Shown one piece after another: positions 10,531 through 24,474 of a DNA stretch of 64,000 nucleotides (its first letter is position 1; each line of letters starts with the position of its first letter). The position numbers and the translations under genes are program-made. The stretch is taken from assembly GCF_029278565.1 (NCBI RefSeq), contig NZ_CP119559.1:248001-312000 (forward strand), given 5' to 3'. The notes under the pieces were generated by a model. That model made no database searches, was not told the origin of the DNA, and saw nothing but the letters and a program-made list of their open reading frames with translations. The stretch comes from Haloarcula halophila. Lineage in GTDB: Archaea; Halobacteriota; Halobacteria; Halobacteriales; Haloarculaceae.

Positions 10531-11244
10531 TCAGAGGAAGTCGGTCATGTCCGGGGCGTCCCCGCCCTGGTCGCCGCCCCCGCCGAAGGACTCGGCGATG
10601 GCAGCCATGAACGAGTCCAGCCCGCGGGTCTGGTACCAGACTGTCCCCGGACCCGTAAAGTCCATGACCAGTCCCTCACCGCTTAACAGCGTCGACTTCA
10701 GCCCGCCGATCCGCCGGGCGTCGAAGGTCACCGACTCCGTCCAGGCGACGACGTGTTCGTTGTCGACGGTGTAGGTCTCGCCGTCGGCCAGCTCCGTCTG
10801 TTCGATGCCGCCGAATGCCTCGATGAGGACGTTCCCGCTCCCTTTCAGGGCCAGGGGCGTGATGCTCGCGCCGGCCAGCATCGACTTCAACCCGCCGAAC
10901 TCCGAATCGATGTCGATGTCGGGGTCCGAAGCGAGGTAGGCTCCGTCGACGGCGTACAGTGTCTCCCCGTCCAGCACGTGATGGTTCACGTCACCTGGCG
11001 TCGGTGGTGCGAGTGTGATCGTCCCCCGTCCGCCCTCGGCGGTGAACTCGTTCGCCAGGAACGACTCCCCACCGAGCATCGACTTCGCGGAACTGAGCAG
11101 GCCGCCCCGACTCGTCGTCGTATCGATGCCGACGTTCGTCGTGTGGCTGACCATCGCGCCGGGTTCGGCCATGATCGACTCGCCGCCTTCGAGATCGACG
11201 ACGACGTGGGTGTAGGAGGGCTTGTGCGTGAGTTCGATCTCCAT
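10531..11244 (-). CDS. AIM24 / TIGR00266 family protein
   Basis: This 237-residue protein is all beta, Gly-rich and typical of AIM24: GAMVSHTTNVGIDT, GLLSSAKSMLGGESFLANEF, GGLKSTLLSGEGLVMDFTGPGTVWYQTRGL. No signal peptide or membrane helix is seen, so it is probably cytoplasmic. The family is widespread, and in yeast the member supports mitochondrial inner membrane organisation; the archaeal role is unknown. The start is supported by a TATA box (minus strand TTTATATACC) 26 bp upstream, giving a leaderless mRNA. The gene stands alone and converges on the dehydrogenase gene without a gap. Confidence 0.88.
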   Translation of the reverse strand: MEIELTHKPSYTHVVVDLEGGESIMAEPGAMVSHTTNVGIDTTTSRGGLLSSAKSMLGGESFLANEFTAEGGRGTITLAPPTPGDVNHHVLDGETLYAVDGAYLASDPDIDIDSEFGGLKSMLAGASITPLALKGSGNVLIEAFGGIEQTELADGETYTVDNEHVVAWTESVTFDARRIGGLKSTLLSGEGLVMDFTGPGTVWYQTRGLDSFMAAIAESFGGGGDQGGDAPDMTDFL

Positions 11245-13922: not shown

Positions 13923-15089
13923 CTATCCGGTCTCCCCGTTTTTGGTACCGTTCAACCTGGTGGAGTGTGCCATCATCTCCGAGATCGACTCGGTATCTTC
14001 CCCGACGATATCTAACATCACGTACTCGGCTTCGTAGTCTTCCATGAACGCACCTTTTCCACCGACCGTGAACGTCTCGTTGTTATCCTTGATGACGAAC
14101 GTGTGCTCGATAGCGAACGAGCTGTTCATCGGTTTTATCAGTCCCTGTCGGACCTCGACTATTTCACCGTACCGCGTCTCGAAGTCCTCCTGTGACCCGG
14201 TGGGCCGAACCGAGAGTTCGGCGACGAGGGAACGGCCACGCCGTTCGTGGATAGTCGCGTCGAAGATCGCGTGGCGGAACCGCTCGTACCGGTGTGGCGG
14301 CTCAAACGGGTCATCGACGTATACCTCCTCGGCGACCGGCCAGTAGTTCCCCAGAAAGGACCCCACCAGTATCGGAGCCAGTCGCTCTTCGGTGAACGAG
14401 ATCGCCTGGTTGTCCGTCTGGTTCCCGCCGAGGAACTCGTTGGGTGAGAACAGCCCTTCCTGTCTATCGACCGTCATCAGCATCGGCCCGGATTCCTCCC
14501 AGTACCGGACCACGGTCCCGATACCCTCGAGAGTGGATCTAGATATGTCTGCCCGTTCGTCGGCGTTGACCTGAACGAGGATGAACAGCCCCTCACTGAG
14601 GGCATTCGAAAGCTCTTCACGAACGTTCGGGAGTACGGACGCTGGGATCGAGAGGGTGACCTCCTCCTCAGCAGTGTTCAGCATATCGACGATCCGACTG
14701 TGGACCGTGGATCGTGACTTGATGACCTCGAACTCACGGTTCGGAGCGACTTTCGGATTGTAATGCTCTTGAAGTTTCGACTCCATCGAGTCGAGACGCG
14801 TACTCAGCCGTGAGATGACTTCACTCGGAGCAACCGCTCTGACCGTCGTCGGCGTCTCGTGATCGTTGATCGTGACGAACCCACGTTTCTCGAACGAACT
14901 CAGTACGTTGTACACGTACCGCTTTGACACACCTGCCTGTTCGGCGATATCGCTCGCTTTCGCCTCGCCGAACTCTAGTATCGAGAGGTACGTATCGATC
15001 TCCTTGTCCGAGAGCCCGAACTCCGCCAGTTCGTTGCGAAGTTCCTGTGTCCCGTCTGTCACATTGTCCGGTATACTCCGTTCAGGCAT
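13923..15089 (-). CDS. TrmB-family transcriptional regulator
   Basis: This 388-residue protein has an N-terminal winged helix (about 20-75: LSDKEIDTYLSILEFGEAKASDIAEQAGVSKRYVYNVL, written here in parts). A short coiled segment (STRLDSMESKLQEHY) follows, and then a large C-terminal effector domain of the TrmB sugar-binding type. The chosen ATG gives MPERSIPDN; nine further codons upstream are possible. It is the last gene of the leftward BMP-type ABC operon, 27 bp after the permease. TrmB proteins usually regulate the adjacent transporter and bind its substrate, so a nucleoside or its sugar may be the effector. Base composition is slightly less G+C-rich than the neighbours. Confidence 0.88.
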   Translation of the reverse strand: MPERSIPDNVTDGTQELRNELAEFGLSDKEIDTYLSILEFGEAKASDIAEQAGVSKRYVYNVLSSFEKRGFVTINDHETPTTVRAVAPSEVISRLSTRLDSMESKLQEHYNPKVAPNREFEVIKSRSTVHSRIVDMLNTAEEEVTLSIPASVLPNVREELSNALSEGLFILVQVNADERADISRSTLEGIGTVVRYWEESGPMLMTVDRQEGLFSPNEFLGGNQTDNQAISFTEERLAPILVGSFLGNYWPVAEEVYVDDPFEPPHRYERFRHAIFDATIHERRGRSLVAELSVRPTGSQEDFETRYGEIVEVRQGLIKPMNSSFAIEHTFVIKDNNETFTVGGKGAFMEDYEAEYVMLDIVGEDTESISEMMAHSTRLNGTKNGETG

Positions 15090-15116
15090 ATAATGGTATT
15101 CACGATGTTTCGGCAC

Positions 15117-16172
15117 TCAGTCCTCGGTATCGTATGGTTCGCCCGCTGCAGCAGGCATCCGTGTCCGACCGACCAACACCAGAACGACGAGTACAGCGAC
15201 GTACGGGAAGAGGCCCGTGAGACTGCTCGGCAGTGAGATCCCAACTGTTTGTAATTGGACTTGTAAGGCATCCATACCGCCGAACAGGACAGACGCAGCG
15301 AACGCTCCGATCGGATTGTAGTTTGCGAACAGGTACGCCGTGATCGCGATCCATCCTCTGCCGTCGACCATCGTGACGCCGGACCCGGTGAAGCCGCCGG
15401 CGAACCCGACCGACAGGGTTGCACCGGCGAGTCCCGCAAGCGCACCGGAGAGGATGACCGCTGCGAACCGGACACGGTTGACATTGACACCAGCCGTGTC
15501 CAACGCTTCCGGGTTCTCACCGGCGGCCTGGACCCAGTAGCCGTACCGGGTCCGATAGAGGCCGACCCACGCGACGGCGGTCACGATCACCGTCAGGACG
15601 ACCAGCGGCGAGATATCGAACAGAATCGGTCCGACGACCGGGAGTGACGACAGCCCCGGGACGGTAAGCGTCGCGATGTTAGGGAGCGAGGGGCTCGAGA
15701 CACCGTCCCAGAGGACGATCGACGAAAACGGTGCGAAGCCGAGTGCGATGAACCAGACCGCCAGTCCCGCGACGATCTGGTTCGCCTCGAACCGGACCGT
15801 CAGTACCGCAAACACGACCGTCAGTAGTGCACAGGCGAGGGTTGCGGTTACGACACCGACCCACAGATGCGCCTGGGTCACCGTTCCGCCGCCGGAGACG
15901 ATCCACGCGGCGGCGGCCGCGATGAACGCTCCGAAGATCATGAACCCTTCCAGGCCGATATTGAATACCCCACTCTTTTCGGCGTAGAGACCGCCGATAG
16001 CGGCCAGTGCGATCGGCGTCGCCGCTCGCAGCGTCCGCTGGACCGCGCCGACAGTGAGAATGTCCACGAGCGGGAGGTCCCAGACACTGCTACCGATCAC
16101 GAGTACCAGCAGGGCGGCCACTACGCCGCCGATAGTCACCCGTCGATCTGCGACTTCGTGAGCGATACTCAT
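15117..16172 (-). CDS. Nucleoside-type ABC transporter, second permease
   Basis: This 351-residue membrane protein of the BPD_transp_2 family (NupQ/YufQ type) has about eight to ten hydrophobic segments. A typical cytoplasmic motif is GENPEALDTAGVNVNRVRFAAVILSGALAGLAGA (given here only as a landmark near residues 215-250). The first helix is at about 16-36. It overlaps the preceding permease gene by 4 bp, so translation is coupled. With the first permease, the double ATPase and the BMP lipoprotein it forms a complete importer. Ribose-type permeases are related, but the BMP partner favours nucleosides. Confidence 0.9.
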   Translation of the reverse strand: MSIAHEVADRRVTIGGVVAALLVLVIGSSVWDLPLVDILTVGAVQRTLRAATPIALAAIGGLYAEKSGVFNIGLEGFMIFGAFIAAAAAWIVSGGGTVTQAHLWVGVVTATLACALLTVVFAVLTVRFEANQIVAGLAVWFIALGFAPFSSIVLWDGVSSPSLPNIATLTVPGLSSLPVVGPILFDISPLVVLTVIVTAVAWVGLYRTRYGYWVQAAGENPEALDTAGVNVNRVRFAAVILSGALAGLAGATLSVGFAGGFTGSGVTMVDGRGWIAITAYLFANYNPIGAFAASVLFGGMDALQVQLQTVGISLPSSLTGLFPYVAVLVVLVLVGRTRMPAAAGEPYDTED

Positions 16173-17302
16173 TCGTCTTCACCCCCGAAACCGGCACGCA
16201 GTCCGGCGATACGGAACAACTCCGGTGTCGCAACGAACAGAACGACGAGACCGACGATCCCGTCGACTAGCTCTGAGGGCATGTCCAGCGTGAAACCGAT
16301 GTACTGCTGGCCGGCGTCCAGTCCCCCGAACAGTATGCCCGACGGAACGACCGCGATCGGGTTGTTCGCGGCTAATAGACTGACGGCGATCGCGTCGAAC
16401 CCGTAAGTGGGGAACGTACTCGGATCGCTGTAGTAGCCGAGGATCATGATCGCGAATAGCGATCCAGTCAGTCCCGCGATCATCCCCGAAAACGCCATCG
16501 TCGAGACGATGGTCCGCTGTGGATCGACTCCGGAGTACGCCGCGGCCTCTTCCTGGTGACCACTCGTCACGAGGTCGTATCCGAACCGCGTCCTGGTCAT
16601 GACGAAATACACACCGACCGCGGTGGCCAGTGCGACGCCGAACCCGATTACGGAGAACGAACTGCTCTGGAAGAGGACCGACGGCAGCGACACGTAGTCC
16701 GGGAACTGTTCGGTGTTCGGTGCCGCGGCTCCAGCAGGTCGGAGGAACTGATCGACGAAGAAGAAGACGACCCCAGTCGCGATGAAGTTCAGCATGATCG
16801 TCGTGATGACCTCGTTGGCGTCCGCATACGCCTTCATCATCCCCGGAAGTGCCCCGTAGGCGCCGCCCGCGAGGATACCAGCGACTGTCGTGACGACCAC
16901 GAGCAGGAGCCCACCGATCAGCCCGCCTGGTAGGATCGGTGCCAGCACCAGGATGGTCACCGCAGTCGCGAACCCGCCGACGACGAACTGTCCCTGGACG
17001 CCGATGTTGAACACCCCGGCCCGGAACGCCACGGCGACGGCAACACCGGCGAGAATGAGCATCGTGGATTGCCGCAGGGTGAACGCGATGTTGGAGACGT
17101 TCCCGATCGCACCGTACAGGAGCGAATAGACGAACAGAACGGGGTCGTACCCGACGGCAGCGACGATGAGAGCACCGAGAGCCAGCGCCAGCGTGATCGA
17201 TGCGGTCGCGATGAGGATCCGCTCGATAACTGTCGCTTTCGTCATCCGACCCGCTGCCCGCTCCAGGACAGCCCGAACACCGTTTTTCTCGGCACCGCTC
17301 AC
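16169..17302 (-). CDS. Nucleoside-type ABC transporter, first permease
   Basis: This 377-residue integral membrane protein of the BPD_transp_2 family (NupP/YufP type) has around ten hydrophobic segments. The second periplasm-facing region contains the Phe/Pro-rich VDQFLRPAGAAAPNTEQFPDY. The conserved helix-loop HQEEAAAYSGVDPQRTIVSTMAFSG contacts the ATPase (landmark only). It overlaps the ATPase gene by 4 bp upstream and the second permease by 4 bp downstream. The pair forms the heterodimeric membrane channel. Confidence 0.9.
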   Translation of the reverse strand: MSGAEKNGVRAVLERAAGRMTKATVIERILIATASITLALALGALIVAAVGYDPVLFVYSLLYGAIGNVSNIAFTLRQSTMLILAGVAVAVAFRAGVFNIGVQGQFVVGGFATAVTILVLAPILPGGLIGGLLLVVVTTVAGILAGGAYGALPGMMKAYADANEVITTIMLNFIATGVVFFFVDQFLRPAGAAAPNTEQFPDYVSLPSVLFQSSSFSVIGFGVALATAVGVYFVMTRTRFGYDLVTSGHQEEAAAYSGVDPQRTIVSTMAFSGMIAGLTGSLFAIMILGYYSDPSTFPTYGFDAIAVSLLAANNPIAVVPSGILFGGLDAGQQYIGFTLDMPSELVDGIVGLVVLFVATPELFRIAGLRAGFGGEDE

Positions 17303-18876
17303 GACTGTTCACCCCCGTCGGGGTGTACTTCCGCTGTGGCGCCGGTGTCTTCCACTTTCTGACCGGCCATCAGCAACCCGAGATCACGTTCCGTCACGTC
17401 GTCCGGATCGACCGTATCGACGAACTCCCCCTCGTACATGACACAGATTCGGTCGGAGAGTTTCTGGATCTCGTCGAGTTTCGACGAGACGAGGACGATG
17501 GCTAACCCGTCGTCGCGCATCTCCCGGAGTCTGTCGTGGAGGAACTCGATCGAACCGATATCCACACCCCGCGTCGGGTGTGTCGCAACCACCAGATCTG
17601 GATCGTGCTCCAGTTCACGGCCGACGATGAACTTCTGTTGGTTCCCACCGGAGAGCGAAGACGCCTCCGCGTCGGGGTTCGGGGGCTGGACGTCGTACTT
17701 CTGGACGATGTTTTCGGCGTGATCCCTGATTGCATCCCAGTTGAGTAACTGGTTGTTCGCGTACGGGGCGATCGTTTGGTTCCCCAGTAACGCGTTCTTG
17801 ACGAGACTGTAGTCGAGAACAAGCCCCTGTTCCTGTCGGTCCTCCGGGACGAGCGTGATACCGGCCCCGATCCGCTCGCGGCGGCTCAATGACGTGATGT
17901 CTTCCCCCTGGTACGTGATCGCTCCCGACTCGATATCCCGTAACCCGGTGATGGCTTCGACTAGCTCCGACTGTCCGTTCCCTTCGACACCAGCGATACC
18001 CAGGACCTCACCCTCCCGAACCGAAAGATCGATGTTGGTGACCTGTTCGAGCCCACGGTCGTCCTCCACGTACAGTGAGTCGACCGTAAGGGACACTTCG
18101 CCCGGTGATGTCGACCGTTCTTGGAAGTCGAACAGGACGTCACGGCCGACCATCATCCGCGCGAGTTCTTCGCGCGACGTACTGTCGGCGTCGACCGTTC
18201 CGACGGCCGCCCCGTCCCGGAGGACGGTGATTTCGTCCGCTGCTTCCATGGCCTCGTCGAGTTTGTGCGTGATGAAGATCAGCGAATGACCCTCGTTCGC
18301 GAGCGTTTCCATGACTTCGAACAGCGAGACGACTTCCTGTGGAGTCAACACCGCGGTCGGCTCGTCGAGGATCAGCGTGTCGGCACCACGGTAGAGGCTC
18401 TTGACAATTTCGACGCGCTGCTGGACACCGACGCCCAACTCTTCGATCCGAGTATCGAGGTACTGATCGATATCGAAATCGTAGGTGTCACAGATCGCCT
18501 CGATATCGGACTTCGCGCTGGTCTCGTCGATCGTCCCACCGCTGGTGGGTTCGTGCCCGAGAACGATGTTCTGTAGGACGGTCATCGTGTCCACGAGCAT
18601 GAAATGCTGGTGAATCATCCCGACCCCCGCGTCGATCGCGTCACGCGGCGAATCGAACGACCGATCTCTGCCGTCGATACGGACCGTTCCCCCTGTCGGC
18701 TCGTAGAGCCCATAGAGAACGCTCATTAACGTCGTCTTCCCGGCTCCGTTCTCACCGACGAGCGCGTGAACGGTCCCTTTTCGCAGAGTGAGGTTCACCT
18801 CGTCGTTGGCCACCACGTCACCGAACCGCTTCGTGATACTGTCGAGTTCGACAGCCGGAGTTCGTGTACCGCTCAT
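17299..18876 (-). CDS. Nucleoside-type ABC transporter, double ATP-binding protein
   Basis: This 525-residue protein carries two fused ATPase domains (NupO/RbsA type). The first has Walker A GENGAGKTT, signature GVGVQQRVEIVKSL and Walker B LILDEPTAVLTP. The second has the degenerate Walker A VEGNGQSELVEAI and the signature SLSGGNQQKFIVGREL, followed by ATHPTRGVDIGS in place of a standard Walker B. This asymmetry is normal for the sub-family: one site hydrolyses ATP poorly. It sits between the lipoprotein gene (43 bp upstream) and the permeases. Confidence 0.93.
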   Translation of the reverse strand: MSGTRTPAVELDSITKRFGDVVANDEVNLTLRKGTVHALVGENGAGKTTLMSVLYGLYEPTGGTVRIDGRDRSFDSPRDAIDAGVGMIHQHFMLVDTMTVLQNIVLGHEPTSGGTIDETSAKSDIEAICDTYDFDIDQYLDTRIEELGVGVQQRVEIVKSLYRGADTLILDEPTAVLTPQEVVSLFEVMETLANEGHSLIFITHKLDEAMEAADEITVLRDGAAVGTVDADSTSREELARMMVGRDVLFDFQERSTSPGEVSLTVDSLYVEDDRGLEQVTNIDLSVREGEVLGIAGVEGNGQSELVEAITGLRDIESGAITYQGEDITSLSRRERIGAGITLVPEDRQEQGLVLDYSLVKNALLGNQTIAPYANNQLLNWDAIRDHAENIVQKYDVQPPNPDAEASSLSGGNQQKFIVGRELEHDPDLVVATHPTRGVDIGSIEFLHDRLREMRDDGLAIVLVSSKLDEIQKLSDRICVMYEGEFVDTVDPDDVTERDLGLLMAGQKVEDTGATAEVHPDGGEQS

Positions 18877-18919
18877 GATTTTGGTTTGCGAATTTCAACC
18901 ATGGTAAATTGGGGATCTG

Positions 18920-20140
18920 TTAGTTCTGACAACCGGACGCACTACAGGGAACCGTCACGTCGCCGTTGATGACCGCCTCTCTCGCCGATTCGAGGTTTTC
19001 GGAGACCACGTCGGGAAGCTTCGGACCGATAGCCTGCCCCAAGACGACCTCGACTGCATCTTGTTCGAGCCCGAGGATGTTCTCGCCCTGGACGCTGCTC
19101 CAGTTGTCTTCGACCACTGCCTGGGCCGCCTCTGCGGTCCCTTCGTTGATGTATTTCACAGCCGAACCGATGATGACGTCTTGGTACTCGGGGAGCGTCT
19201 GGGACTGGTCTGCGTCGACACCGATGGCGAACCGCTCCTCGTCCTGTGCGGCCTGGAAGACGCCCTGTCCGGTCGCCGCAGCGGCGTGGTAGACGATGTC
19301 GGCTCCGCTGTCGTACTGCGAGAGAGCGACTTCCTTCCCGTCCTGAGGGCTCGAAAATGACCCCGCGTATCCGACCTTTACGTCGATTTCGCTGTCGACC
19401 CACTCGACGCCTTTGATGTACGACTGCTCGAACGCACGGATCAGCGGTCCGTCGACGCCACCGGTGAACCCGACCACCTTGCCATCGGGGTCGTTGGAGT
19501 TCCCCTCGTGAGTGAGTTCCCGCGTCGTCATCGTTCCGGCGAGAACGCCCGCCTGGAACGACATCTCGTGGTTGGCCCAGATGAAGCCAGCGACGTTCGG
19601 CTGGTCGATGACGTCGTTGATCAGCATCCACCGCTGGTCGGGGTACTCGGAGGCGTTCGTTTCCAGGGCCTGCGTGTGGTTGAACCCGACTAGGACGATG
19701 AGATCGTAGTCCGGGTTCTGGCTCTCGGCCAGGCGAGACTGAACGGTCTGGTATCTGGACTGTTCGGTCTCCTCGACCTGTTGGACCTCGATATCGAACT
19801 CCTCGGCGGCGGTCTGTAACCCCTCTATCGCGAGGTCGTTGAACGCTTTGTCGCCGAACCCTGCTGGACTCGATATGATGGCGATGTTCGTCGTCTCGGA
19901 ACCACCACCGCCATTGCTACCTCCATCACTGCTTTCACCGTCACCACTACTTCCGTCACTACTTTCGCCGTCACCACTACTGCCCCCGTCGTTGCTCCCG
20001 GGTTCGCTGAGACACCCCGCGAGACCTGCCACACCGAACAATCCAGCACCCGATTTCAGGACGTTCCGACGATCAATACCGCTCTGTGCCGTTTTCGGAC
20101 TCCGCTCGCCGTCGTTACCGCTGTTTTCACCACGTGTCAT
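18920..20140 (-). CDS. BMP-family substrate-binding lipoprotein of a nucleoside ABC transporter
   Basis: This 406-residue protein has a Tat-type lipoprotein signal: twin Arg in GIDRRNVLKSG, a hydrophobic stretch GAGLFGVAGL and the lipobox LAGC. After the Cys comes a flexible Ser/Gly/Asp/Glu linker of about 35 residues encoded by near-identical 30-bp repeats. The Bmp (PnrA-like) domain follows, with NIAIISSPAGFGDKAFNDLA, the D-K-F-N motif that contacts the nucleoside. It is anchored outside the membrane and delivers substrate to the two permeases. A TATA box (minus TTATTTA, 20173-20180) lies upstream with a leader of about 10 nt, making this the first gene of a five-gene operon. Confidence 0.92.
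   Translation of the reverse strand: MTRGENSGNDGERSPKTAQSGIDRRNVLKSGAGLFGVAGLAGCLSEPGSNDGGSSGDGESSDGSSGDGESSDGGSNGGGGSETTNIAIISSPAGFGDKAFNDLAIEGLQTAAEEFDIEVQQVEETEQSRYQTVQSRLAESQNPDYDLIVLVGFNHTQALETNASEYPDQRWMLINDVIDQPNVAGFIWANHEMSFQAGVLAGTMTTRELTHEGNSNDPDGKVVGFTGGVDGPLIRAFEQSYIKGVEWVDSEIDVKVGYAGSFSSPQDGKEVALSQYDSGADIVYHAAAATGQGVFQAAQDEERFAIGVDADQSQTLPEYQDVIIGSAVKYINEGTAEAAQAVVEDNWSSVQGENILGLEQDAVEVVLGQAIGPKLPDVVSENLESAREAVINGDVTVPCSASGCQN
19926..19985 (-). repeat. Two 30-bp in-frame repeats coding for the lipoprotein linker
   Basis: 19926-19955 and 19956-19985 differ at only a few bases and each code for a Ser/Gly/Asp/Glu decapeptide. Such repeats can expand or shrink by slippage, changing the tether length. 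Confidence 0.6.
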
Positions 20141-20172
20141 AGACGCTCGTGTAGACAGAGCCGAAAACATGC

Positions 20173-20340: not shown

Positions 20341-21804
20341 TCACCCGTCCGTGTCGTAGCGCTCGAACAACGCTGTCAACTGCTGGGCTCGCATCGTGAG
20401 CATCTTCGCGTTGACGTATACCTCACCCAGTGCGAGGTTCTGCTCTTCGGCGATCGCCGCAACGTGTTCCGCTTCCTCGACGTTCTGTCTGGAGGTCTCA
20501 GCGACGTCGTCGGCGATCGAGGCGACCTCTTCGGAGGTCGCAGCCTGGTCGTCGGTCGCGTCGCTGATCTCCCTGACGCCCGTCGAGGTCTTCTCGACGT
20601 ATTCCATGATCGACTCCAGCGCGGTCAGTCCCTCCTCGACAGCGTCCTGGCTGTCTTCGACGGCGTCTTGCATCTCGGAAATCTCGTCGACCGCGTCCGC
20701 TGTCTGTGCCTGGATCTCGCCGATCAGCGTCTCGATCTCGGTAGTCGCCTCCTTGGTCTCCTCGGCGAGCGTCTTGACCTCGTCGGCGACGACGCCGAAC
20801 CCGTTGTTGTTCGCGCTCCCCGAGGACGCGTGGGCCGCCTCGATCGAGGCGTTCAGCGCCAGGATGTTCGTCTGTTCGGCGATGTCGTCGATGAGATCGA
20901 CGATTCGACCGACCTCGGTCATCCGGTCGTCCAGCGTCCGGACTGTCTCGACGACCTCGTCCGTCTGCGTGACCGTCTCGGACATGGTCTCCTGAGCGGA
21001 TGTAGCCGCTTCGATCCCCTCGACGGTCCGGCGTTCGGTCTTGTCCGCCGTCTCGGTGACCTCCTTCGAGGAGGCGGCGATCTCCTCGATCGTCGCGGAC
21101 ATCTGTGACATCTCGTCGCTGATGGTCGTGATCTGCTGGTGTTGCTCGTGGAAGACGTCGGCGATCCCCTGGACGGTCTCTGCCACGTTCTGTGACGCTT
21201 CTTTGACTGCCTGGGTCGCGGCGGTCACCTGTTCGGACGACCCCGCAACGTCCGCCGAGAACTCGTCGGCCGTCTCGATCGTCTGCTGGAAGGCAGCGGT
21301 CATCTCGTTGAACTCCGTGCCAAGTTCGTTCAGTGCTGCCGACGGTGTATCCACGGCCATCCGCCTGCTAAGATCCCCCTCGTTGGTGGCGTCGATCGTC
21401 GCACAGCACTCCCGGATGTACGCAGATAGCTCCTCGTGGCTCATCTCATCGGCGGCAGAGACGCCGCCGTCGGTCGCCGCGGGAGCCTGCTGGGCCACGC
21501 CGCCCGTCGTGGCCTCGCGTTCCGCCCGAACCGTGGCGAGTTCGCCCTCGGTCTCGGCGAGTGCGGTGCGTGCCCCGTCCCGTTCTGCCTGCCGCTGATC
21601 ACGTTCCGTGACTGCGTCCGTCAGCCGTGCCCTGACGGACACGATCGTGTACCATCCCACGATCGCTGCGACGACGAGACCTCCCAGTGCCAGTGGCCAC
21701 TTCAGTCCGGGCGGGCCGAACCCGACCACGATCACCTGGTAGAGGGCGTGAGCGAACTGACCTGCCGTGCCAGCGGCCACCCACCGATGTCCTGTCCGTG
21801 CCAT
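20341..21804 (-). CDS. Chemotaxis transducer (methyl-accepting protein) without a sensor domain
   Basis: This 487-residue transducer has one clear membrane helix region at about residues 30-55 ([21 protein letters not shown]) after only about 30 N-terminal residues, so there is no extracellular ligand domain. A coiled Glu/Arg/Ala-rich linker, a short HAMP-like stretch (about 140-200) and a full signalling domain follow. The hairpin tip [15 protein letters not shown] lies at about residues 300-320. It ends in a short C-terminal tail. The chosen ATG (MARTGHRW) has a TATA box 26 bp upstream, predicting a leaderless mRNA; the longer frame upstream is unlikely. It is divergent from a gene for an unsecreted solute-binding protein, the probable sensory partner. 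Confidence 0.88.
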
Positions 21805-21824
21805 TGATCCCGTGTTTTCATCGG

Positions 21825-21834
21825 TAATATAAAT
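21825..21834 (-). promoter_or_regulatory. TATA box of the transducer gene
   Basis: ATTTATATTA on the minus strand is centred 26 bp upstream of the ATG at 21804. It also fixes that start against the much longer frame. Confidence 0.65.
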
Positions 21835-21876
21835 CATCTCCCCCTCCGTGTTCAGGATTGAGAATGTGCGCGGTAG

Positions 21877-21884
21877 CTTGATAA
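21877..21884 (+). promoter_or_regulatory. TATA-like element of the solute-binding protein gene
   Basis: CTTGATAA is centred 27 bp upstream of the ATG at 21908, supporting that start and a leaderless mRNA. It lies back to back with the transducer promoter, about 45 bp apart. Confidence 0.45.
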
Positions 21885-21907
21885 CCACGAGCCGAAAACC
21901 AGGGTGT

Positions 21908-23101
21908 ATGTCACGGGTATCGACCGGGGGCCACGCGGATATCGAACTCCTGCACCGACTCGTGGGCGGTGACGGCGGGGCTGCACTCGACGCGCTACTG
22001 GACGGGTTCACACAGCAGCATCCCGACGTCCCGTTGGGCGATGTCACCAACGAGAACCTGAGTCTCACGGTCAAGAGCCGTATCCTGAAAGAGGACCCGC
22101 CCGACGTGTGGATCGAATGGCCGGGCAAGAACCTCAAACCGTATACCGATGCGGGTGTCGTCGGGGATCTCTCAGCTATCTGGACCGACGGCAATATGGA
22201 ACAGAACTACCTCGACGGCCCGAAAGATGCCGCTCGGATAGGCGACACGTACCGGGCGGTCCCGCTGAACATCCACCGGATCAACAACCTGTTTATCAAC
22301 GCCTCGCTCGCCGACGAGGTCGGTGTCGATCCCGCCCGGATCGACAGCCCCAGTGCGTTCGCAGAGGAACTGGAACGGATCGACGCCGAGACCGACCACG
22401 TCGGGATGTTGTTCCCGATGAAAAACCCGTGGACGGTGCTCCAGGTCTTCGAGACGGTCCTCCTGGGCGAACAAGGACACGACACCTATCGAGCGATCAG
22501 TGACGGGCGTGCGAGCCAACACCGCCGCGAGATCGTCCAGGCCCTGGAGATCGTGCAGCGCTACGGCGCCGTCGCGACCGACGACCGGGCGTATCTCTCC
22601 CTGACCGACGCGAACGAGCGGTTCATCGAGGGCGAATCCGTCTTCTTCCATCAGGGCGACTGGGCGGCCGGCGCGTACACGGAGACCGACGGGTTCGACT
22701 ACCGGTCCGAGTGGTCGCACGTCCCGTTCCCGGGAACGGACGGCTACTACGCGATGAACATGGACTCGGTGGTCTCGGCCGCCGACACCGACACCCCCGA
22801 CGCCGTCGAGACGTTCCTGCGTTACGTCGGGTCCGCAGACGGCCAGCGCCGGTTCAACCGGAAGAAGGGATCGATCCCGCCCCGCACCGACGTCGACACC
22901 GGACAGTTCACGCCCTTCCTCCAGGAGCAACAACTGGCCTTCCAGCAGTCTCGGAGTCAACCGCTCTCGATCACGCACGGACTCGGCGTTCGCCCGGACC
23001 AGCTTATCGAACTCAAGACGGCTGTCTCCGCGTTCGTCTCCTCCTGGGACGTGGAGTCGGCTGCCGATGCCGTGATCACGGCCCTGGAGCAATCGTCCTA
23101 A
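21908..23101 (+). CDS. Family 1 extracellular-type solute-binding protein without signal peptide
   Basis: This 397-residue protein resembles sugar-binding proteins of ABC importers (SBP family 1): [45 protein letters not shown] (landmark near residues 60-90), [10 protein letters not shown] and [10 protein letters not shown]. The N-terminus, [18 protein letters not shown], has no hydrophobic core, twin Arg or lipobox, and no in-frame upstream extension supplies one. It should therefore stay in the cytoplasm. No permease or ATPase gene is nearby. The divergent neighbour is a transducer with no sensor domain, so a role as a cytoplasmic ligand sensor for taxis is an attractive inference. The ligand is likely a sugar, from family only. 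Confidence 0.82.
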
Positions 23102-23223: not shown

Positions 23224-24474
23224 ATGGGACAGGCAAACGACGTGGATTACGCTGACCTGCACGATCCGAACGCGGAGTATACGATGCGTGAACTCTCCGC
23301 AGAGACGATGGGTGTCACCGCCAAACGCGGTGGTGGCCGCGACGTGGAGATCACCGACGTTCAGACGACGATGATCGACGGGAACTTCCCGTGGACACTG
23401 GTCCGGATCTACACCGACGCTGGCATCGTCGGAACGGGCGAGGCCTACTGGGGAGCCGGTGTTCCGGAACTCATCGAGCGGATGAAGCCGTTCGTCGTCG
23501 GCGAGAACCCCCTGGACATCGACCGCCTCTACGAGCACCTCATCCAGAAGATGTCGGGCGAGGGCAGCGTCGAGGGCGTCACCGTCACCGCGATCGCCGG
23601 TATCGAGGTCGCGCTGCACGACCTCGCCGGCAAGATCCTCGAAGTCCCGGCCTACCAGTTGCTCGGCGGGAAGTACCGCGACGAGGTCCGGGTCTACTGT
23701 GACTGCCACACCGAGGAGGAAGCCGACGCCGACGCCTGCGCCGACGAGGCCCGTCGCGTCGTCGACGAACTCGGCTACGACGCCCTGAAGTTCGACCTCG
23801 ACGTTCCCAGCGGCCTGGAGAAAGACCGTGCGAACCGTCACCTCCGCCCCGGCGAGATCCGCCACAAGGCCGAGATCGTCGAGAAGGTCACCGAGGAGGT
23901 CAAAGACGAGGCCGACGTGGCGTTCGACTGCCACTGGACCTTCAGCGGCGGCTCGGGCAAGCGCCTCGCTGAGGCCATCGAGGACTACGACGTCTGGTGG
24001 CTCGAAGACCCGGTCCCGCCGGAGAACCTCGAAGTCCAGGAGGAGGTCACGAAGTCCACGAACACGCCGATCACCGTCGGCGAGAACCGCTACCGCGTGA
24101 CCGAGGAACGCCGCCTGATCGAGAACCAGGCCGTCGACATCATCGCGCCCGACCTCCCGAAGGTCGGTGGCATGCGCGAGACCCAGAAGGTCGCCGACGT
24201 GGCCAACCAGTATTACATCCCAGTGGCGATGCACAACGTCTCATCGCCGATCGCGACGATGGCGAGCGCGCAGGTGGGCGCCGCCATCCCGAACTCCCTG
24301 GCCGTCGAGTACCACTCCTACGAACTCGGCTGGTGGGACGACCTGGTCGAGGAGACCGTCATCGAGGACGGCTACATCGAGATCCCCGAGGAGCCCGGTC
24401 TCGGCCTCACCCTCGACATGGACGCCGTCGAGGAGCACATGGTCGACGGCGACACGGTGTTCGACGAAGCATAG
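23224..24474 (+). CDS. gnaD: D-gluconate dehydratase (or D-xylonate dehydratase), enolase superfamily
   Basis: This 416-residue enzyme of the mandelate racemase group has the capping domain, then a barrel. Metal ligands are Asp235 (FDCHW), Glu261 (LEDPVPP) and Glu287 (TVGENRY), with a Lys in LKFDLD and a catalytic His337 in VAMHNVSS. Haloferax uses such enzymes for gluconate in the semiphosphorylative Entner-Doudoroff route and for xylonate in xylose breakdown. The sequence alone does not decide, and no 2-keto-3-deoxygluconate kinase or aldolase gene is nearby. It is transcribed alone. Its stop codon sits in the loop of a 10-bp perfect hairpin that starts a row of stem-loops. Confidence 0.85.
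   Translation: MGQANDVDYADLHDPNAEYTMRELSAETMGVTAKRGGGRDVEITDVQTTMIDGNFPWTLVRIYTDAGIVGTGEAYWGAGVPELIERMKPFVVGENPLDIDRLYEHLIQKMSGEGSVEGVTVTAIAGIEVALHDLAGKILEVPAYQLLGGKYRDEVRVYCDCHTEEEADADACADEARRVVDELGYDALKFDLDVPSGLEKDRANRHLRPGEIRHKAEIVEKVTEEVKDEADVAFDCHWTFSGGSGKRLAEAIEDYDVWWLEDPVPPENLEVQEEVTKSTNTPITVGENRYRVTEERRLIENQAVDIIAPDLPKVGGMRETQKVADVANQYYIPVAMHNVSSPIATMASAQVGAAIPNSLAVEYHSYELGWWDDLVEETVIEDGYIEIPEEPGLGLTLDMDAVEEHMVDGDTVFDEA

Follow-up and report, generated by a model that had tools for sequence, protein, structure and literature searches.

Solute-binding proteins (SBPs) are generally described as working outside the cytosol, from where they feed transporters or receptors (PMC9602780). In Halobacterium salinarum, SBPs co-purify with their transducers in the pairs BasB/BasT and CosB/CosT, and further pairs are OE2170R with Htr6 and OE2196F with Htr18 (PMC3579733). 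The same species has the two-transmembrane transducers MpcT, HtrI, and HtrII, as well as Car, a cytoplasmic arginine transducer that mediates taxis to an intracellular metabolite (PMC3579733). About half of the transducers in the best-studied archaeal species are without a known signal (PMC3579733, Table 2). In the open-access literature, our searches turned up no description of an SBP that acts in the cytosol together with a chemoreceptor.

We analyzed a window of 64,000 nucleotides from the genome of Haloarcula halophila (4.04 Mb, 4 contigs), in which a transducer gene and an SBP gene diverge from a 103-bp gap, exactly as described in the first-pass annotation of this DNA (Table 1). The SBP matched the Pfam families SBP_bac_8/SBP_bac_1 and had the MalE-type (SBP_bac_1/8) fold. 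The pair resembles BasB/BasT and CosB/CosT in that an SBP is joined to a two-transmembrane transducer, and its genes are side by side or otherwise tied, as in SBP-dependent receptors (14 genomes with linked genes, co-occurrence in 34 of 34). However, BasB and CosB are described as periplasmic, and thus exported, whereas the H. halophila SBP has no signal; likewise, the BasT/CosT kind has an outer receiving domain, whereas the outer part of the H. halophila transducer is just a 5-residue turn. Because the exported SBP and the outer receiving domain are both missing, we did not file the pair with those systems; it would use an SBP with a transducer as they do, but from inside the cell. It would be similar to Car in reading an internal metabolite, but Car lacks a membrane segment and does the sensing itself, while here the transducer has a membrane hairpin and sensing would fall to a separate protein. 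MpcT, HtrI, and HtrII share the two-transmembrane build (MpcT was compared by its description), but the H. halophila transducer co-occurs with a soluble, presumably sugar-binding protein. The reading that we consider probable is that this SBP stays in the cytosol and reports intracellular sugar to a transducer without a sensor of its own.

Table 1. Features of the transducer-SBP locus in window coordinates.
Feature	Position	Strand	Evidence or remark
Transducer (Htr/MCP), 487 aa	20341..21804	-	MCPsignal, E 6e-39; one orthologue per genome in 34 Haloarculaceae
Membrane hairpin helix 1, residues 2-29	21718..21801	-	Alignments, hydropathy, AF2
Membrane hairpin helix 2, residues 35-57	21634..21702	-	AF2 helix 35-100
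Low-confidence linker, residues 101-122	21439..21504	-	pLDDT about 50; alignment
HAMP-like input region, residues 123-180	21265..21438	-	AF2 helices 123-141 and 156-214; sequence reading
MCP signaling domain, residues 265-435	20500..21012	-	Pfam PF00015
Intergenic region with both promoters	21805..21907	.	TATA-like boxes conserved in linked relatives
TATA-like box of transducer	21826..21834	-	About 22-30 nt before ATG, leaderless arrangement
Degenerate copy of TTCTCA-N4-TGATTA	21849..21864	-	Score 3.0, low; relatives score high
TATA-like box of SBP	21878..21884	+	About 24-30 nt before ATG, leaderless arrangement
Signal-less SBP, 397 aa, glucose-binding-protein fold	21908..23101	+	Pfam, AF2, Foldseek, clade
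Enolase-superfamily sugar-acid dehydratase, 3' of SBP	23224..24474	+	MR_MLE

The transducer had been annotated as about 30 residues followed by a single membrane helix, and this part had to be revised, as residues 1 to 57 make up a hairpin of two membrane helices. The absence of a sensor domain, on the other hand, was borne out by the AF2 model, hydropathy, and alignments. In the model (helices 2-29, 35-100, 123-141, and 156-214), the 5-residue outer turn joins the two membrane helices, and the second of them continues as a cytoplasmic coiled coil that ends at residue 100; with a pTM of only 0.39, the model does not reliably place the helices relative to one another. Hydropathy gave exactly two membrane segments, the first of which was moderate because of its polar residues, and Q16, H19, and Q23 in this helix were at least 90% conserved across 24 orthologues. 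The linker at residues 101 to 122 contained an invariant DGG and varied in length, and the HAMP-like region that follows was read from the sequence and the AF2 helices, with no Pfam hit. The nearest transducer paralogue in the host genome (227 bits) aligned only from residue 114. Since the transducer has a sensor domain neither outside nor inside the cell, its input must originate in the membrane or be supplied by a bound protein. In the first case, the transducer would itself sense something within the membrane, such as membrane potential, which is the input of MpcT, or a partner membrane protein, as HtrI and HtrII receive light via sensory rhodopsin, and the SBP would only tune or accompany it. 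A hairpin with almost no outer loop, the near-invariant Q16/H19/Q23, which could serve an intramembrane input unrelated to the SBP, and the listing of HtrI, HtrII, and MpcT as two-transmembrane transducers all fit this explanation. However, it leaves the exact co-occurrence with signal-less SBPs unexplained, and a variable, low-confidence linker before the signaling domain is awkward for a helix-transmitted signal; we consider it unlikely, although not far-fetched. We favor docking of the SBP because the protein that always accompanies the transducer is an SBP that very probably stays inside. Membership of the MCP family suggests that the output is taxis, which is plausible in this host, as the genome has archaellins and about 22 other MCP-like matches.

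The start Met of the SBP stands directly before the mature-domain motif, which agrees with the earlier claim that the protein has no export signal. All 43 locus entries of signal-less SBPs, some of which hold the same gene, likewise had the start Met just before the mature-domain start and no intervening signal. An in-frame stop 1 to 8 codons upstream of this start leaves no room for a signal in many orthologues; a missed upstream start adding a signal peptide, which the first-pass annotation had named as one finding that would refute its reading, was therefore rejected. No export signal was found on the transducer-paired SBPs in any of the 34 genomes that carry them, while their signaled homologues had a clear twin-arginine motif and lipobox. 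Additionally, N+Q made up 6.6% of the signal-less SBPs versus 11.1% of the exported homologues, and K+R made up 7.5% versus 4.8%, which, as far as sequence composition tells, is a shift towards cytosolic enzymes. A control set of other lipoproteins was left out of this comparison because it included misassigned genes. As had been claimed, there was no permease or ATPase adjacent to the SBP within the window, so that both hallmarks of an ABC-importer SBP, the export signal and the neighboring transporter genes, were missing. Signaled homologues in relatives usually had a permease or ATPase next door, and a few unlinked signal-less copies (L090, L117, and L119) lay within some kilobases of an ABC operon. 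Together, these observations argue strongly for a cytosolic location. Export by an unrecognized route, with the SBP feeding a transporter or the transducer from outside, would agree with the general description of SBPs as extracytosolic (PMC9602780), but the missing signal in all 34 genomes, the in-frame stops just upstream in many of them, the cytosol-leaning composition, and a transducer without an outer domain to receive the protein make it extremely improbable.

The signal-less SBPs form a group of their own. In a tree of 111 SBPs (39 usable signal-less sequences and 72 homologues; quick method, midpoint root), the 39 fell on one side of a single branch with a support of 100, and the other 72 were all Tat lipoproteins; the signal-less copies from Haloarcula formed one clade. 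When 392 genomes of the order were searched with a profile built from 19 signal-less SBPs, the signal-less set reached scores of at least about 510 bits, against 479 bits for the next best match, a gap that is partly by construction, given that the profile derives from part of this same set. The three best outsiders below the gap carried a lipobox, and no more divergent signal-less SBPs were found in this search. The AF2 model of the SBP (pLDDT 93) had its best Foldseek match in 2b3b, the glucose/galactose-binding protein of Thermus thermophilus, with the same fold (TM 0.87) and 27% identity in the structural alignment. The Thermus protein is an exported component of an ABC transporter, whereas the H. 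halophila SBP is signal-less. Most of the C-lobe pocket residues were kept: W252, D286, K320, and H357 aligned with W244, D278, K312, and H348, which we take to line the pocket of the Thermus protein, while E13 and H66 were not kept. The four residues were 74 to 100% conserved in the signal-less clade and 97 to 100% in exported SBPs, and position 18 was W in 97% of the exported proteins but variable in the signal-less clade; ligands may therefore differ among the signal-less copies. We infer with moderate confidence that the ligand is a sugar. The columns conserved in signal-less but not in exported SBPs included L53, K56, L60, P170, and F239, which are, on the basis of this conservation, candidates for a partner surface.

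The partnership was examined in a survey of 146 Haloarculaceae genomes, with thresholds of E ≤ 1e-80 for the transducer and E ≤ 1e-60 for SBP homologues. The transducer was present in 34 of the 146 genomes, and this orthologue call was clean because the weakest match reached 5e-122 against 3e-67 for the best paralogue in the host genome. SBP homologues occurred in 78 genomes, and their N termini were inspected for every homologue in 44 transducer-negative genomes and for the relevant ones in the 34 positives. All 34 transducer-positive genomes had a signal-less SBP gene, including two damaged genes, one with an in-frame TAG (G063, L232) and one with an apparent frameshift (G004, L023), lesions that reflect either decay or sequencing error. 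The other 112 genomes had none at the sensitivity used (homologues at E ≤ 1e-60), and the homologues in transducer-negative genomes were all Tat lipoproteins with a lipobox. Thus, the survey of relatives proposed with the first-pass annotation gave 34/34 versus 0/112. The Fisher p value of 5e-34 ignores shared descent, and a safer statement is that five genera were mixed and that both genes agreed in each of them (positives in Haloarcula, 8/32; Halapricum, 5/6; g7, 6/7; g12, 6/8; and g17, 1/2). Among the within-genus negatives, G060, G095, and G136 are incomplete, G001 and G088 are near complete, and so are most of the 24 negative Haloarcula genomes. Because five genera are mixed, the transducer and the SBP have changed together more than once. 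No transducer match was found outside the Haloarculaceae at E ≤ 1e-20 among the 392 genomes of the order, and no orthologue was found on plasmids.

The two genes were linked, as a divergent pair, in 14 genomes (eight Haloarcula, five Halapricum, and G045) and unlinked in 20, where they sit at many different loci. Relatives with unlinked genes had been expected to count against the pair; they were found, yet the co-occurrence was perfect, and the first-pass reading was not refuted. Linkage as the only evidence was given up in favor of co-occurrence, which goes beyond linkage because the genes are apart in 20 of the 34 genomes. Such a pattern could in principle also arise if two independent genes were inherited or transferred together, since related genomes are nonindependent samples and the Haloarcula SBP copies form one clade, but unlinked genes at many loci and five genera that are mixed for both genes together make this very improbable. 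In one relative (G020, L035), the transducer frame appears shifted near residues 29 to 52, as a result of a sequencing error or of a genuine frameshift.

The transducer has a xylose-isomerase-like TIM-barrel gene and a Gfo/Idh/MocA gene as neighbors, and we considered these sugar genes as its true partners. They were found in 72 and 75 of the 146 genomes, respectively, among them nearly all Haloarcula that lack the transducer, whereas seven transducer-positive genomes (G045 and G068 to G073) lacked one or both. Thus, they do not track the pair or explain its co-occurrence, and they were rejected. Downstream of the SBP gene, the dehydratase (nearest NCBIfam gluconate/galactonate dehydratase, below the cut-off) is context outside the proposed sensor. 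Unlinked SBP copies lay beside galT, a galE-like epimerase, and galK (L089), GH51 and GH2 enzymes (L093), GH4 and transketolase (L098), an enolase-superfamily dehydratase (L119), or a BadF-type kinase and an ABC operon (L090). Roughly half of all unlinked copies were in housekeeping neighborhoods, which counts against a sugar-sensing reading. The sugar-gene neighborhoods and the dehydratase would also suit an SBP that acts as a cytosolic sugar regulator, buffer, or scaffold and co-occurs with the transducer through the same sugar-eating lifestyle, without contact. Three points speak against it: catabolic genes next to the transducer lack this pattern of co-occurrence, 14 genomes have the SBP in divergent orientation to the transducer, and SBP promoters have an element in common with transducer genes. 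We regard this explanation as distinctly unlikely.

Other features of these neighborhoods were also recorded. A block at window positions 13923 to 20170, containing a PnrA-type (Bmp) lipoprotein, an ABC ATPase, two permeases, and a TrmB regulator, sits between the transducer and the isomerase, Gfo/Idh, and AIM24 genes as if inserted, and in the relative G020 (L064) these genes come directly after the transducer. In several genera, the AIM24-family protein (10531 to 11244) recurs in the vicinity of the transducer. In Halorhabdus-like genomes (L051, L056, L059, and L063), the transducer lies directly 3' of a gene for a probable 2-oxoacid:ferredoxin oxidoreductase subunit.

As the first-pass annotation had it, both genes have a promoter near the start: TATA-like boxes precede both ATGs by about 22 to 30 nt in most linked relatives, and in most of these they remain conserved across gaps that range from 103 to 206 bp. 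The leaderless arrangement is typical of haloarchaea. The intergenic regions of relatives also had an element in common, TTCTCA-N4-TGATTA. A position weight matrix (PWM) built from six of these regions, with the host genome left out, scored higher at 22 transducer promoters of the host than at 422 other promoters (p 1.3e-5), a result exceeding those of all 200 column-permuted control matrices. At unlinked SBP promoters from four lineages (g12, g17, g7, and g4), the PWM scores were in the top 7% (overall p 1.5e-4, from orthologous and therefore nonindependent promoters), while at unlinked transducer promoters they were not significant (p 0.09). In g12, the motif ATTCTCA-N7-TA..CGG..G was found at the transducer and SBP promoters of all six positive genomes and at 0 to 2 other sites in each; only its rarity is informative because it was designed from those two promoters. 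These elements support, but do not prove, coregulation of the SBP and transducer with taxis genes. The exact palindrome TTMTCA-N4-TGAKWA was rejected as a clean taxis operator, and only the softer PWM claim was kept, because its sites are few (2 to 3 per genome) and their neighbors are mixed, e.g., KaiC-like ATPases. Two such KaiC/RAD55-like ATPase genes (L277:1533-2243 and L275:2-1522) have a near-palindrome of this form at their starts.

The proposal that a cytosolic SBP works with the transducer is strongly, if indirectly, supported by the co-occurrence, the single clade, the conserved starts, and the lack of a signal on every copy, and also by the sugar-gene neighborhoods and the promoter element common to transducer genes. 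We hold the functional partnership with strong confidence and direct docking of the SBP on the transducer with moderate confidence. The glucose-binding-protein-type cleft of the SBP would bind an intracellular sugar or a sugar-derived metabolite, and its bound state would be passed to the cytoplasmic side of the transducer, which would consist of the membrane hairpin, the coiled coil, and the MCP signaling domain. The sugar-loaded or the empty SBP may dock on the coiled coil or the HAMP-like region, and the cell would steer by its internal sugar level. If so, a whole nonexported clade that occurs only together with a sensorless transducer would have turned the usual outside-in arrangement of SBPs inside out, and archaea would have a specific molecular route for metabolism-dependent taxis.

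More tentatively, the system might be a modular receptor in which each genome combines a constant sensorless transducer with interchangeable cytosolic SBPs, and taxis reads internal sugar pools. An ABC-type binding protein would then have been turned into a cytosolic sensor. There would be several SBP subfamilies, with one to three copies in each genome, and every copy would be matched to a sugar that the strain metabolizes.

In one of the Haloarcula genomes (G016), a second signal-less SBP was present on a secondary replicon in two copies (L119:6251-7444 and L200:617-1810), which were alike in every compared feature.
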